This document shows positions 11,407 through 16,540 of a stretch of DNA of 64,000 nucleotides, one piece after another. A program made the translations under genes and the position numbers. This DNA is from Galbibacter sp. BG1 (GTDB lineage: Bacteria; Bacteroidota; Bacteroidia; Flavobacteriales; Flavobacteriaceae), in contig NZ_CP058364.1 in assembly GCF_013391805.1 (NCBI RefSeq), positions 1 to 64,000 on the forward strand. The letters are read 5' to 3'. Every line of letters begins with the position of its first letter. Within the stretch, counting starts at the first letter, position 1. The notes beneath the pieces were generated by a model, which was not told the DNA's origin, searched no databases, and was given only the letters and a program-made list of their open reading frames with translations.

Positions 11407-11414
11407 TACATTTG
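11407..11414 (+). promoter_or_regulatory. Putative -7 element of the thr operon promoter
   Basis: TACATTTG matches the Bacteroidota -7 consensus TAnnTTTG exactly. A transcript would start a few bases downstream, about 15 nt before the leader-peptide ATG at 11435. No clear TTTG -33 box is visible upstream; that region is T-rich (11382-11390). The call rests on the exact match and on its position in front of the leader ORF. Confidence 0.5.
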
Positions 11415-11434
11415 ACACCTACAACGAGTAAGTA

Positions 11435-11542
11435 ATGCAAAAAATTAATTTTATACACGCCACTTCAATCTTCCTAATCGGGAAGACGTGTATTATTGCT
11501 ATTATTCGTAACACTACAATTATTACCCCTTTTGGGGTATAG
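11435..11542 (+). CDS. thrL: Threonine operon leader peptide (attenuator)
   Basis: A 35-codon ORF runs from ATG 11435 to TAG 11542. It holds 10 Ile and 5 Thr codons, concentrated in the second half (TCIIAIIRNTTIIT, residues 18-31). Threonine and its product isoleucine are exactly the amino acids expected to control thrABC; the E. coli thrL peptide is likewise a Thr/Ile run. The ORF lies in the otherwise gene-free 485-bp stretch (11332-11816) before thrA, just after a putative promoter. Its end overlaps a perfect hairpin (TACCCC-TTTT-GGGGTA, 11524-11539). By analogy, ribosome stalling at these codons when Thr- or Ile-tRNA is scarce would change folding of the downstream leader and allow read-through into thrA. 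The role is inferred, not shown. Confidence 0.72.
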   Translation: MQKINFIHATSIFLIGKTCIIAIIRNTTIITPFGV

Positions 11543-11732
11543 CATTTTACATATCGTCCATAAGTTATATTTGTTTGAACCTAAACAAAAAATACACTTT
11601 CTATAAAAAGTATATCCTTTTGTATGCAATAAATATAATTTTCCAATTATGAACCGATTAAAACAAGGACTATTTTGATTTTGAAATCTGAAAATCATCA
11701 GAACATTTAAAAATTATTAAAACTAACGAATG

Positions 11733-11785
11733 AAACGTCTGCCATAGGGAATTTTAATTTATGGCTTCACTAATTAAGACGTTTT
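11733..11785 (+). terminator. Attenuator terminator hairpin ahead of thrA
   Basis: A perfect outer 8-bp stem AAACGTCT (11733-11740) / AGACGTTT (11777-11784) and an inner 6-bp stem GCCATA (11741-11746) / TATGGC (11760-11765) stack, with an 11-nt bulge on the 3' side. The 3' arm ends in TTTTAT. It lies 32 bp before the thrA start. The hexamer AGACGT in the leader ORF (11484-11489) repeats the 3' arm and could compete for the 5' arm. A further hairpin, TGATTTT / AAAATCA, is at 11676-11697. The bulge and short T run make it weaker than the window's other terminators, as expected of a conditional one. Confidence 0.55.
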
Positions 11786-11816
11786 ATATGACCAACAAAA
11801 ACATAAATTAGAACTA

Positions 11817-14264
11817 ATGAAAGTATTAAAATTTGGTGGCTCCTCGGTTGCCAATGCCCAGAATATAGAAAAAGTAAAGAATATAGTTGCAAACACTTCA
11901 AAAGAAGACAAAACTATCGTAGTGGTATCTGCTTTTGGTGGTGTAACCGATTTATTGGTAAAAGCTTCGCTATTCGCCGCCGCTCAAGATGAAGCCTATA
12001 AAAAAGTACTGGAGGAAATCGAGGAAAAACATATTTCCACCGTACAACAATTAATAGAAATAAATAACCACAGTAAAGTAATAAGTAACGTAAAACGCGA
12101 ATTGAATGTTCTTGAAACGTTGCTGGAAGGAGCTTTCCTGATTGGGGAAACCACACCCAAGCTTTTAGACAAGATTGTAGGATATGGCGAATTGCTCTCG
12201 TCGTTTATTATTAACGAATATTTCTTAAAAGAAGGCCTCGACACAATTCATAAAGACAGTAAATCACTCATAAAAACCAATGATGATTTTGGCAAAGCTA
12301 CAGTTGATTATAAAACTACCAATGAACTTTGCGAAAACTACTTTGGAACGGTGACATACCAAATAATTGTGGCTCCCGGGTTTGTGGCCTCTTCTTCCAA
12401 AGGGGAATCTACGACTTTAGGCCGTGGAGGATCGGATTATACGGCAGCTATTTTCGCCGCTGCTATCAATGCAGATAGCCTCGAAATTTGGACTGATGTC
12501 AGCGGAATGTACACGGCCAACCCGAAATTAGTGAAACAAGCCTTCGCCATTCCCCACATTTCTTATGAAGAAGCGATGGAGTTGTCTCATTTTGGCGCGA
12601 AAGTTTTATATCCACCAACCATACAGCCAGTATTAACAAAAGGAATTTCCATTCATATTAAAAACACTTTTGCCCCCGAGGAAGAGGGAACCCTTATAAC
12701 CAAAAACACCAACGGAAAAGAACGCGCCGTGCGTGGTATAAGTCATGTTGAAAATATCTCTTTAATTTCCCTGGAAGGAAGTGGAATGGTAGGTATTCCA
12801 GGAATTTCAAAACGTTTCTTTGAAGTGCTATCACAGGCTAAAGTGAGTGTAGTATTTATTACCCAAGCTTCTTCGGAACATTCTATTTGTATTGGAGTAG
12901 CTTCCGCAGATGCCGATAAAGCCAAGAGCGCGTTGGAAATGGCTTTTGAATATGAAATGACTTTGAAAAAGATCAATCCAGTAGTAGTTGAAAATGACTT
13001 GGCTATTGTAGCTTTGGTAGGAGATAATATGAAGAGCCACCAAGGGTTGAGCGGACGCATGTTTAGCGCTTTGGGGAAAAACAACGTTAATATCCGTGCC
13101 ATTGCCCAAGGAGCTTCAGAAAGAAATATATCCGCCGTAATCAATAAAAACGACGTAAAAAAAGCCTTAAATACCCTTCACGAGCAATTTTTCGAAGACA
13201 ATGTAAAACAGTTGAACCTGTTTGTTATGGGAGTTGGAAATGTTGGGGAAAAATTCTTGGCTCAAATTGAAAAGCAACGTAAGTTTTTAAAGAAGCAATT
13301 AAAGCTTAACATTCGGGTGGTTGCCCTATCAAACTCCAAAAAGATGGTTTTTGATGAAAACGGACTCAATCTAAAAAACTGGAAGGAACAACTCGATAAT
13401 GGGGAAGCTACCGGATTGGATAAATTCTTTAAGAAAGTAAATGAGCTCAATTTACGAAATAGTATTTTCGTGGATAATACGGCAAATGAAGCAGTTTCCA
13501 ATACCTATTCCAGCTACTTAAAGGATAGTATTTCTGTGGTTACTTGTAACAAGATTGCTGCCTCTTCTCCATATAAAAACTATGTTCATTTAAAGGAACT
13601 ATCCAGAAAATACAATGCGCCTTTCTTGTTTGAAACCAATGTAGGTGCCGGACTTCCTATTATCGATACATTGAAAAACTTAATTGCTTCCGGAGATAAA
13701 ATAACGAAAATCCAAGCCGTGCTTTCAGGAAGTTTAAATTTTGTTTTCAATAATTTCAACGACAATACCAATTTCGATGAAGTAGTAAAGCAAGCCCAAG
13801 AAGAAGGATATACCGAACCAGACCCTAAAATCGATTTAAGCGGTATTGATGTAATGCGAAAGATTCTAATTCTTGCCCGTGAGAGCGGAAACGAATTGGA
13901 TATTGAGCAAATTGAAAATGATTCTTTCCTTCCACAGGAAAGTTTGGACACAGATAATGTGGAGGATTTTTATAAAACATTGGTGAAACACAAAGAACAT
14001 TTTGATGGCATTTACAAAGCCGCAGCCGATAAGGATTGCCGCTTGAAATATGTAGCACAGTTTGAAAATGGCAAGGCCAAAGTAGGTTTGCAACATATCC
14101 CGAAAGATCATCCATTTTATAATTTAGAGGGAAGCGACAATATTGTTCTTTTCTTTACTGAAAGATATGTAAAGCAACCTCTTATAATAAAAGGAGCTGG
14201 TGCGGGTGCAGATGTTACCGCTTCTGGTATCTTTGCAGATATTATAAGGATTGGTAACTTTTAA
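11817..14264 (+). CDS. thrA: Bifunctional aspartokinase / homoserine dehydrogenase
   Basis: It catalyses the first and third steps from aspartate to threonine: phosphorylation of aspartate and NAD(P)H-dependent reduction of aspartate semialdehyde to homoserine. At 815 residues it matches ThrA/MetL fusions. The kinase domain (1-~290) opens with MKVLKFGGSSVANA and has TLGRGGSDYTAA. Two ACT regulatory domains span ~310-450 (ISLISLEGSGMVGIPG; LAIVALVGDNMKSHQGLSGRM). The dehydrogenase domain (~465-815) begins with a Rossmann GVGNVG and contains SGSLNFVFN and EPDPKIDLSGIDVMRK. It is the first gene of thrABC, behind the Ile/Thr leader, so regulation by attenuation plus ACT-domain feedback is likely. 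Confidence 0.97.
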   Translation: MKVLKFGGSSVANAQNIEKVKNIVANTSKEDKTIVVVSAFGGVTDLLVKASLFAAAQDEAYKKVLEEIEEKHISTVQQLIEINNHSKVISNVKRELNVLETLLEGAFLIGETTPKLLDKIVGYGELLSSFIINEYFLKEGLDTIHKDSKSLIKTNDDFGKATVDYKTTNELCENYFGTVTYQIIVAPGFVASSSKGESTTLGRGGSDYTAAIFAAAINADSLEIWTDVSGMYTANPKLVKQAFAIPHISYEEAMELSHFGAKVLYPPTIQPVLTKGISIHIKNTFAPEEEGTLITKNTNGKERAVRGISHVENISLISLEGSGMVGIPGISKRFFEVLSQAKVSVVFITQASSEHSICIGVASADADKAKSALEMAFEYEMTLKKINPVVVENDLAIVALVGDNMKSHQGLSGRMFSALGKNNVNIRAIAQGASERNISAVINKNDVKKALNTLHEQFFEDNVKQLNLFVMGVGNVGEKFLAQIEKQRKFLKKQLKLNIRVVALSNSKKMVFDENGLNLKNWKEQLDNGEATGLDKFFKKVNELNLRNSIFVDNTANEAVSNTYSSYLKDSISVVTCNKIAASSPYKNYVHLKELSRKYNAPFLFETNVGAGLPIIDTLKNLIASGDKITKIQAVLSGSLNFVFNNFNDNTNFDEVVKQAQEEGYTEPDPKIDLSGIDVMRKILILARESGNELDIEQIENDSFLPQESLDTDNVEDFYKTLVKHKEHFDGIYKAAADKDCRLKYVAQFENGKAKVGLQHIPKDHPFYNLEGSDNIVLFFTERYVKQPLIIKGAGAGADVTASGIFADIIRIGNF

Positions 14265-14276
14265 TAGTACGGCTAA

Positions 14277-15197
14277 ATGAACGAGATTAAACTATTTTGC
14301 CCAGCAACAATAGCCAATGTTTCCTGTGGATTTGATGTACTCGGACTCTGTTTGGACAGTACCGGTGATGAAATGCTGATAAGAAAGACACGGCAAAAAG
14401 GAGTGAAAATCACCAAAATAATTGGGCAGGATTTACCGCTGGAAACCGAAAAAAATGTTGCAGGGGTTGCTGTTTTGGCATTACTAAAGGAAATAGAAAC
14501 CGAATACGGATTTGAAATTGAAATCACTAAAAAAATAAAGCCTGGAAGTGGTATTGGTAGCAGTGCTGCCAGTGCTGCTGGGGCGGTTTTTGGGGTTAAT
14601 AAACTTTTAGGAGAACCATTTACACGGGAAAAACTTGTGGAATTTGCTATGATGGGAGAAGAATTAGCCAGTGGCGCCCCACATGCAGATAACGTTGCTC
14701 CTGCGCTCCTAGGTGGTTTTACACTTGTAAAAGGATACGATCCTTTTGAAGTATTGCGATTAAATAGTCCGAAAGAAATTTTTGCAACTATTATTCATCC
14801 GCAAATAGAAGTAAAGACGGCAGATGCCCGTTCTGTAATAAAACAAACCATTCCGCTTAAAAAGGCCATTATTCAATGGGGAAATTTGGCAGGTTTGGTA
14901 AGCGCACTTTATACAGAAGATTACGAGCTGCTTTCCAGATGTTTACATGATGAAATCGTAGAACCGATGCGGAGTCCGCTTATTCCTGGTTTTTACAAGG
15001 TAAAACAGGCTGCAAAAGATGCTGGCGCTCTCGGAAGTGGCATTTCGGGATCGGGACCATCCATTTTTGCCTTGTCCAAAGGTGAAGAAACAGCAAGAAA
15101 AGCCGCCGCCGCCATGGCAGAAGTCTATAAGGAATTTGGCGTGGATTACGATGTACACGTTTCCAAAATAAATCCTGAAGGCGTTAAAATTATGTAA
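14277..15197 (+). CDS. thrB: Homoserine kinase
   Basis: It phosphorylates homoserine to O-phosphohomoserine, the substrate of threonine synthase. The protein has 306 residues and the GHMP kinase fold. The ATP-binding glycine-serine loop reads KPGSGIGSSAASAAGA (~86-101), the N-terminal motif is ANVSCGFDVLG, and the C-terminal GHMP motif is GSGISGSGPSIFAL. It starts 12 bp after the thrA stop, consistent with translation from one thrABC message. Confidence 0.96.
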   Translation: MNEIKLFCPATIANVSCGFDVLGLCLDSTGDEMLIRKTRQKGVKITKIIGQDLPLETEKNVAGVAVLALLKEIETEYGFEIEITKKIKPGSGIGSSAASAAGAVFGVNKLLGEPFTREKLVEFAMMGEELASGAPHADNVAPALLGGFTLVKGYDPFEVLRLNSPKEIFATIIHPQIEVKTADARSVIKQTIPLKKAIIQWGNLAGLVSALYTEDYELLSRCLHDEIVEPMRSPLIPGFYKVKQAAKDAGALGSGISGSGPSIFALSKGEETARKAAAAMAEVYKEFGVDYDVHVSKINPEGVKIM

Positions 15198-15238: not shown

Positions 15239-16540
15239 ATGAAATATTACAGTCTTAATAGTACTAAAAATAATGCACAAACAAGCTTCGAGGAAGCTGT
15301 GGTACGAGGAATCGCTCCCGATAGAGGACTTTACTTTCCGAATCAAATAAAACCCCTGGAAAAGGAATTTATTCAAAATATTGAAAAATACAGCAATGAA
15401 GAAATAGCTTTTAAAGTAATAGCCCAATTCGTAAACGACGAAATTCCCGAGCCGGTTTTAAAGGAAATTATCCGAGAAACCTTATGCTTCGATTTTCCCA
15501 CCGTAGCAGTGGAAGATAACGTGTATTCCCTAGAACTTTTTCATGGGCCCACCATGGCATTTAAAGATGTTGGCGCCCGTTTTATGGCACGTTGTTTAGG
15601 CTATTTTAACCGTGATAAACAAGATGAAACCGTTACCGTCCTTGTAGCTACCTCAGGAGATACTGGAGGTGCTGTGGCAAGCGGGTTCTTAGATGTAAAA
15701 GGTGTGGAAGTGGTTATATTGTACCCTAGCGGAAAGGTAAGCGATATTCAAGAAAAACAATTAACTACTTTAGGCAAAAACATTACTGCTTTGGAAGTCG
15801 ATGGCGTATTTGATGACTGCCAAGACATGGTAAAGACAGCTTTTCTGGATGCCGAACTTACAGAAGAAAACCTAACCTCTGCAAACTCCATTAACGTGGC
15901 GAGATGGTTGCCGCAGATGTTTTATTTTTTCTTCGCTTACAAGCAGCTAAAGGCTAAAAATAAAGAGTTGGTATTTTCTGTGCCCAGCGGAAACTTTGGG
16001 AATATCTGTGCCGGGATGATGGCTTATAAACTTGGATTACCTGTAAAACATTTTGTGGCTTCTACTAACATTAATGATACGGTTCCACAATATATGGCAA
16101 CCAAGGAATACAATCCGAAGCCATCCAAACAAACCATTTCCAATGCTATGGACGTTGGCAACCCGAGTAATTTTATACGCATTCAAACTTTATTCGATAA
16201 TAATTTTGAAGAACTCAATCAGTTGTTTTCTTCTTTTAGTTATACCGATAAGGATACGCGAGAAACCATGGAGAAAATCCATAAAAATTCTGGATATGTT
16301 GCCGATCCACACGGTGCGGTAGGTTATTTGGGATTGAAAAGATACCAGCAAGCGGAACCCAATACTTTAGGGGTCTTTCTAGAAACGGCGCATCCTGTAA
16401 AGTTTTTGGATGTAGTTGAAGAAACCCTGGGTATAATCGTAGCCATTCCCGAGCAAATTAAAGCCGTAATGGACAAAGAGAAAAAAGCGCACGCCATTAA
16501 AAATTATGAAGAACTGAAATCTTATTTGAAAGGCCGATAG
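15239..16540 (+). CDS. thrC: Threonine synthase
   Basis: It converts O-phosphohomoserine to threonine with pyridoxal phosphate. The 433-residue protein shows the N-terminal threonine-synthase signature (FEEAVVRGIAPDRGLYFP). The PLP-binding lysine is Lys109 in HGPTMAFKDVGARF, followed by the phosphate-binding ATSGDTGGAVASGF. It is the third gene of thrABC, 41 bp after thrB. No clear terminator follows; instead a duplicated 204-bp element begins 10 bp downstream. Confidence 0.97.
   Translation: MKYYSLNSTKNNAQTSFEEAVVRGIAPDRGLYFPNQIKPLEKEFIQNIEKYSNEEIAFKVIAQFVNDEIPEPVLKEIIRETLCFDFPTVAVEDNVYSLELFHGPTMAFKDVGARFMARCLGYFNRDKQDETVTVLVATSGDTGGAVASGFLDVKGVEVVILYPSGKVSDIQEKQLTTLGKNITALEVDGVFDDCQDMVKTAFLDAELTEENLTSANSINVARWLPQMFYFFFAYKQLKAKNKELVFSVPSGNFGNICAGMMAYKLGLPVKHFVASTNINDTVPQYMATKEYNPKPSKQTISNAMDVGNPSNFIRIQTLFDNNFEELNQLFSSFSYTDKDTRETMEKIHKNSGYVADPHGAVGYLGLKRYQQAEPNTLGVFLETAHPVKFLDVVEETLGIIVAIPEQIKAVMDKEKKAHAIKNYEELKSYLKGR

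Follow-up and report, generated by a model that had tools for sequence, protein, structure and literature searches.

A short open reading frame (ORF) rich in Thr and Ile codons precedes thrABC in the Galbibacter genome considered here, which raises the question of whether this operon is controlled by a leader-peptide attenuator and, if so, through which RNA element. The enterobacterial thr leader (the thrL attenuator) has the same arrangement, i.e., a short Thr/Ile-rich ORF before thrABC in which the controlling residues are those of the pathway. A leader of this kind should work by leader-peptide attenuation, yet a search for the terminator by which the classical type is defined found none in conserved form: a strong one lies between leader and thrA in 1/91 comparable thr leaders, and the candidate hairpin of the Galbibacter genome lacks a counterpart in six congeners. 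Galbibacter-type leaders also differ from thrL in that a conserved hairpin meets the leader stop codon and in their Bacteroidetes promoter. On sequence comparisons, we lean slightly towards a ribosome-mediated, Thr/Ile-sensing attenuator of thrABC that represents a terminator-less variant.

The searchable literature has little on attenuation in Bacteroidota. For F. psychrophilum, strong indications that leader peptides attenuate amino-acid operons have been reported, the section in question listing elements of pheA and hisG, besides others, but none of thr (PMC9723704); the leader studied here resembles those 5' elements and differs in serving an operon that the section does not name. Bacteroid-trp is listed in the relevant part of PMC2864571, and short ORFs reminiscent of leader peptides are mentioned for B. 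thetaiotaomicron in a passage of PMC7366714. Our search of the literature outside subscription journals turned up no study of a Bacteroidota thr leader, and the available portions of PMC6414381 and PMC6429828 held nothing bearing on thr.

The thrABC locus and its leader

The window, i.e., the whole 64,000-nt stretch of DNA analysed, covers C1:1-64000 of a genome consisting of one contig (G000, 3.71 Mb), and its nearest named thrA match, among the best 80 of 354 relatives, is that of Galbibacter mesophilus (95% identity). NCBIfam models identified thrA, thrB and thrC as the next genes downstream of the leader (Table 1), as a sequence-only reading of this DNA had claimed. The genome holds two more aspartokinase homologues (G000:C1:2115155 and G000:C1:1819564, open frames of 1144 and 417 aa).

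Table 1 Features of the thr leader region and of other leaders in the same genome (positions refer to the window unless prefixed by G000)
Feature	Position	Strand	Sequence or description	Basis
Promoter -7 element	11407..11414	+	TACATTTG, Bacteroidetes TAnnTTTG type	sequence position
5'UTR arm	11424..11431	+	ACGAGTAA, can pair with TTATTCGT at 11502-11509 (codons Ile-Ile-Arg)	alignment, fold
Leader ORF	11435..11542	+	peptide MQKINFIHATSIFLIGKTCIIAIIRNTTIITPFGV*, 35 codons, 10 Ile and 5 Thr	sequence, relatives
Hairpin inside ORF	11453..11493	+	ATACACG...CGTGTAT with inner CTTCC...GGAAG	computed fold
Regulatory codons 20-31	11492..11527	+	IIAIIRNTTIIT, Ile or Thr at 9/12	sequence
Hairpin P2	11524..11539	+	TACCCCTTTTGGGGTA (UACCCC-UUUU-GGGGUA), perfect, 6 bp	sequence, relatives
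Motif after P2	11550..11559	+	CATATCGTCC, not consistently paired	alignment
AU-rich inverted repeat	11566..11588	+	TATATTTGTTT...AAACAAA, start resembles -7 promoter element	alignment
Bulged terminator-like hairpin	11733..11786	+	six congeners without counterpart	fold, score, alignment
thrA	11817..14264	+	bifunctional aspartokinase/homoserine dehydrogenase I	NF006959, 1062.7 bits
thrB	14277..15197	+	homoserine kinase	NF002288 and TIGR00191
thrC	15239..16540	+	threonine synthase	TIGR00260
trp leader (L091)	G000:C1:1995720-1995839		MRTIRRNTWWWSNLRKTS, terminator-type	
his leader (L319)	G000:C1:3390945		MTIYTSHHHHFHFFAQAR, terminator-type	
ilv leader (L331)	G000:C1:2861465		MNFKKNVIIKIIINSY, terminator-type	

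Three further elements of that reading stand as described, namely a 35-codon ORF with 15 Ile or Thr codons, a promoter-like sequence just before it and a hairpin at its end, which we call P2. The TAnnTTTG element belongs to the main sigma factor of F. psychrophilum, with the box at -12 to -5 (PMC9723704), and placing it so on TACATTTG predicts a transcription start near 11419. A TAC[AT]TTT[GA] string was present upstream of thrA in 79/80 named loci, the sole miss (L027) being an incomplete locus.

The last Thr codon of the ORF lies within the 5' arm of P2, and the stop codon TAG follows the hairpin directly. The P2 sequence CCCCTTTTGGGG was identical in 7/7 genus sequences (the window plus six congeners), and P2 itself is family-wide. 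Both arms of a second potential helix, ACGAGTAA and TTATTCGT, were likewise retained in 7/7, with one A/G change that preserves pairing; this helix is present in the computed fold, and its 3' arm precedes the Thr run. For the hairpin inside the ORF, the six congeners have the inner stem with altered sequence.

Conservation of the leader among relatives

Leaders were called by a fixed rule that required an ORF of 8-60 codons whose last 12 codons hold 4 or more Thr/Ile, among them 2 Thr, and a hairpin at the stop codon with a stem of 4 bp or more and 3 G-C pairs. The named set comprised 80 thrA loci from named Flavobacteriaceae and related MAGs (the best 80 of 354 relatives); 79 of these and the window, i.e., 80 regions without the incomplete locus, were scanned, giving calls in 70/80 as against 1/80 on the reverse strand and 0/80 in each of three shuffles. 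At E-values up to 1e-90, thrA was found in 123/149 searched family genomes, and among family regions taken one per genus the rule called a leader in 86/119, compared with 4/119 on the reverse strand and 1, 1, 0, 0 and 1 of 119 in five shuffles; the one-per-genus and named sets overlap in species. The remaining 33/119 genera escaped the rule, some by threshold and others having no visible leader; near-misses with a visible P2-type end include L172, L191, L218, L220, L238 and L242, among others.

Beyond the family, calls were obtained in 5/21 regions at class level (21 fetched from 33 matches), and visual inspection of a phylum sample suggested a Thr-rich leader in 8/29 loci (L093, L094, L095, L097, L099, L101, L102, L104). 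L101, L102 and L269, which belong to another family of the class, have a leader-end hairpin of inverted polarity (ACGGG...CCCGU) whose loop contains the stop codon. An Ile/Thr-rich leader before thrABC is thus borne out for most sampled family genera and some other families. The alignment of thrA upstream regions that the sequence-only reading had proposed supports it in part: the Ile/Thr ORF and the hairpin at its stop codon are conserved, and the switch and terminator that it had also put forward are not.

The coding signal is concentrated at the ORF end. Across the 86 rule-called genera, Thr occupied codons -5 and -6 from the stop in 73% and 69%, and over the final 14 codons the share of Thr plus Ile was 47% in frame versus 4.6% and 2.0% for the two alternative frames. 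As Thr/Ile content is part of the rule, these levels are partly circular, which does not apply to the occurrence of all four Thr codons (ACA, ACC, ACG, ACT) in the same genera. An ATG start was assigned in 84/86, with a candidate ranking that favoured ATG. In Galbibacter and Mesonia the P2 loop is one base longer and the stop comes one codon later, i.e., the stop shifts with loop length, which indicates that the frame is kept. Taken together, the sequences make it very probable that this is a Thr/Ile-sensing leader peptide. In two Pricia leaders, few Thr codons stand ahead of P2, the stem being preserved through wobble pairs in one (L048) and a changed pair in the other (L061), the latter without an ATG in the leader frame; they may be decaying copies of the element.

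The gap between leader and thrA was 55-93 nt in 63/70 called loci and 57-93 nt in 75/86 called genera; in the window it measures 274 nt. Since the stretch between leader core and thrA is unalignable across the genus (window plus six congeners), the long distance in the window reflects a local insertion. In 7/70 called loci the gap reached 142-274 nt and was unalignable, with the core unchanged, and a core kept in spite of such gaps should act near itself.

The small ORF might be kept for some other purpose, e.g., mRNA protection, reinitiation at thrA or a functional peptide, with no sensing of Thr or Ile. The tight gap would fit, and reinitiation has been proposed for short leader-gene distances in the part of PMC4833913 that treats them; the gap is, however, far above the 11-14 bp peak given there for Bacteroidetes. 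The Thr/Ile bias sits at the ORF end before thrA and the remainder of the peptide is highly variable among relatives, and we regard such a role as very improbable.

Terminators in thr and other leaders

Classical attenuation would have leader stalling toggle an antiterminator against an intrinsic terminator, here the hairpin at 11733-11786 that the sequence-only reading had pointed out before thrA. The hairpin is real (-14.1 kcal/mol), and its terminator score of 16.8 exceeds the maximum of 12.1 in 20 shuffles and falls just under the range of trp leaders (17.3-24.0); it carries an 11-nt bulge and a TTTTAT tail, both unfavourable to the classical scheme. The six congeners scored 0, 0, 7.3, 0, 9.3 and 0 and contain no counterpart, so this part of the claim does not extend to the genus; the hairpin may be a recently gained terminator. 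The proposed switch fared similarly: AGACGT is at 11484-11489, and 11481-11491 matches 11733-11743 at 9/11 positions, but AGACGT is present in the ORFs of 0/6 congeners at this place, and we rejected the helix for want of conserved pairing. In this genus the segment falls in the local hairpin at 11453-11493.

Comparison with other leaders sharpens the point. After the stop codon, and counting hairpins below 50 nt, a terminator scoring at least 15 was found in 1/91 P2-type thr leaders (L253) and one scoring at least 12 in 2/91. All 30/30 trp leaders examined have a terminator (33 matches in 41 family genomes), and one separates leader from hisG in 14/15 his loci, the match in L323 sitting upstream of its own leader. 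The ilv regions were mixed, an ORF followed by a terminator scoring at least 15 being seen in 7/14 regions scanned (300-nt scan, 17 matches listed). In the window genome, a strong intrinsic terminator belongs to each of the leaders of trp, his and ilv. The his and ilv leaders of this genome are otherwise like the thr leader, i.e., a codon-run leader ORF before an amino-acid operon, and differ from it in the strong terminator between leader and gene. Bacteroid-trp (Rfam RF01692, one match in the window genome) is also a leader-peptide element of Bacteroidetes, distinguished from the thr leader by its Trp codons, another fold and the terminators just mentioned. At the gathering score, Rfam models matched neither the window nor any of 20 thr upstream loci; at E-values up to 10 the best match on the leader (E 0.61) was taken as chance.

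Some relatives do have terminator-type thr leaders, which speaks for the classical scheme. A Thr-rich ORF with a strong terminator was found in L250, L253, L273, L274 and L275, and also in L215 (read from sequence); L253, L273 and L274 have a CCUUCC...GGAAGG stem, and no convincing P2 was seen in terminator-type thr leaders. Among 49 regions without a P2 call, 12 had a hairpin scoring at least 15 in the last 190 nt, some of them without a Thr ORF. These few relatives point to two designs at one gene. For the P2-type leader of the window, given that a strong gap terminator is so rare and that the congeners share neither hairpin nor AGACGT, we consider classical attenuation improbable. The earlier guess that the mechanism may differ from that of E. 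coli fits these results, with a conserved hairpin at the stop codon and a downstream terminator usually missing.

Could P2 itself be the terminator? We rejected it as an ordinary intrinsic one since its U-tract is poor (U at 3 of the first 12 bases after P2 in L009-type leaders). P2 with its tail nevertheless scores 11-14 in some genera, where it could conceivably act as a weak terminator, and this weakens a clean split into two designs. Scores of at least 12 were obtained in 22/102 family regions (about 2.7 in shuffles) and in 9/73 (4.3) and 1/7 (0.3) regions of other groups, many of these matches being P2 itself or ORF-internal hairpins, compared with 2/91 from the stop codon on.

The wider interest lies in a family-wide thr leader without the textbook decision element, i.e., the terminator, and with a hairpin at its own stop codon instead. 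The genome also has terminator leaders for trp, his and ilv, and a few relatives use the terminator design for thr itself, so the designs can be compared at one gene; such a comparison would directly test how ribosome-RNA polymerase coupling can control a gene without a strong terminator.

How the leader might act

From the conserved arrangement we infer that the ORF is translated, that it senses amino acids and that P2 acts on RNA polymerase (RNAP). In our preferred reading, transcription would start at about 11419, and RNAP would make the leader ORF with a ribosome following. When Thr and Ile are plentiful, the ribosome would reach the stop codon and depart, whereupon P2 would form behind RNAP and hold or end transcription 10-20 nt further on, at the A/U-rich spacer and the CAUAUCGUCC-type motif; this action may be a pause or weak termination, perhaps aided by Rho acting on a leader poor in G. 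Under a shortage of charged Thr- or Ile-tRNA, the ribosome would stall on codons in or preceding the 5' arm of P2, P2 folding would be blocked and RNAP would continue into thrA. P2 appears to sit where a pause hairpin would, with an A/U-rich stretch and a motif beyond it. A translating ribosome covers P2 whether stalled or not, so timing must decide, and the U-poor tail, which makes no ordinary terminator, counts against this scheme. For P2 as the effector, acting on transcription near itself, we judge the chances to be about even.

In an alignment of 66 of the 80 named loci (L001-L006, L013, L015, L027, L032, L045, L047, L051 and L073 left out), P2 was paired in 100% of cells and is near-invariant, hence silent on covariation. 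A clade of 31 sequences, selected on the presence of P2 and of another hairpin, P3, ~30 nt further on, was more informative: P2 and P3 together were paired in 90.8% of cells, and 26 cells were changed on both sides, versus a shuffled mean of 8.6 (0/500 as high) and far above slid controls. Part of the loci L007-L080 contain, by eye, a small hairpin ~30 nt after P2 (GCGA-UUUU-UCGC, GCCU-CUUU-AGGC and similar), which may be the Maribacter-type counterpart of P3.

The CAUAUCGUCC-type motif follows an A/U-rich spacer 3' of P2 in 6/7 genus sequences; L004 has CATATAATCC in its place. Many family members carry UCCG, GUCC or CUUC strings at about +14 to +22 after P2 (P2 located in 187/220 sequences). 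Neither with the ORF nor with the thrA start did this motif pair more strongly overall than in single-base shuffles, P2 having been mis-picked in some loci of that test, e.g., L001 and L180.

Rho offers a related route. In tnaC-type leaders Rho loads downstream of the leader stop, and by analogy the departing ribosome would here leave a G-poor leader on which Rho loads. With RNAP delayed by P2, Rho would then terminate transcription upstream of thrA, whereas stalling of the ribosome would prevent it. Gap terminators are few in thr leaders, as this would require, and thr gaps contain 7.5% G and 17% C versus 11.8% G and 11.7% C upstream of 18 window genes, 11.3% and 13.0% upstream of 15 hisG and 13.6% and 16.5% upstream of 14 ilvD, although composition is weak evidence and these controls are not matched genome by genome. 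The gap is mostly just ~55-93 nt, and that of the window is less skewed (10.2% G, 14.2% C). Rho-dependent attenuation, which may be one form of our preferred explanation, seems unlikely as a mechanism in its own right.

The tight gap could instead point to translational control, in which leader stalling refolds the RNA and exposes the thrA start; erm-type attenuation works in this way, the downstream gene having a sequestered start that stalling releases. The gap of 57-93 nt in most genera and the position of P3, which covaries in one clade, upstream of the thrA start would suit this. In computed ensembles for 80 of the 86 called genera (gap up to 110 nt), however, a ribosome parked on the Thr codons failed to expose the thrA start (mean change -0.012 and 0.001), which, unlike in erm-type systems, became more open in just 2 and 3 of 80 and less open in 10 and 3. 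The core is also kept where the gap extends to 142-274 nt (7/70). On this modelling, translational control seems rather unlikely and less likely than P2 as effector. The latter reading leaves the tight gap of most genera unexplained: in plain attenuation the exact leader-gene distance is not under selection, according to the part of PMC4833913 dealing with distance, and a tight gap would not be expected.

No conserved competing (antiterminator) helix emerged among the candidates considered, for which covariation was weak or absent. Two alternative helices of the 31-sequence clade, paired in 81% and 85% of cells, were rejected as their covariation did not go beyond shuffles. P0, a long-range helix of Maribacter/Arenibacter-type leaders between ACGGAC (~codons 6-8) and GUCCGU after the stop, was paired in 75.6% of cells of the 66-sequence alignment and was likewise set aside, its covariation being weak.

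Further downstream, TATATTTG (11566-11573), retained in 5/7 genus sequences, matches the -7 promoter consensus. An internal promoter located beyond the attenuator is one possibility, the other being that the string is merely one arm of the TTTGTTT/AAACAAA inverted repeat.
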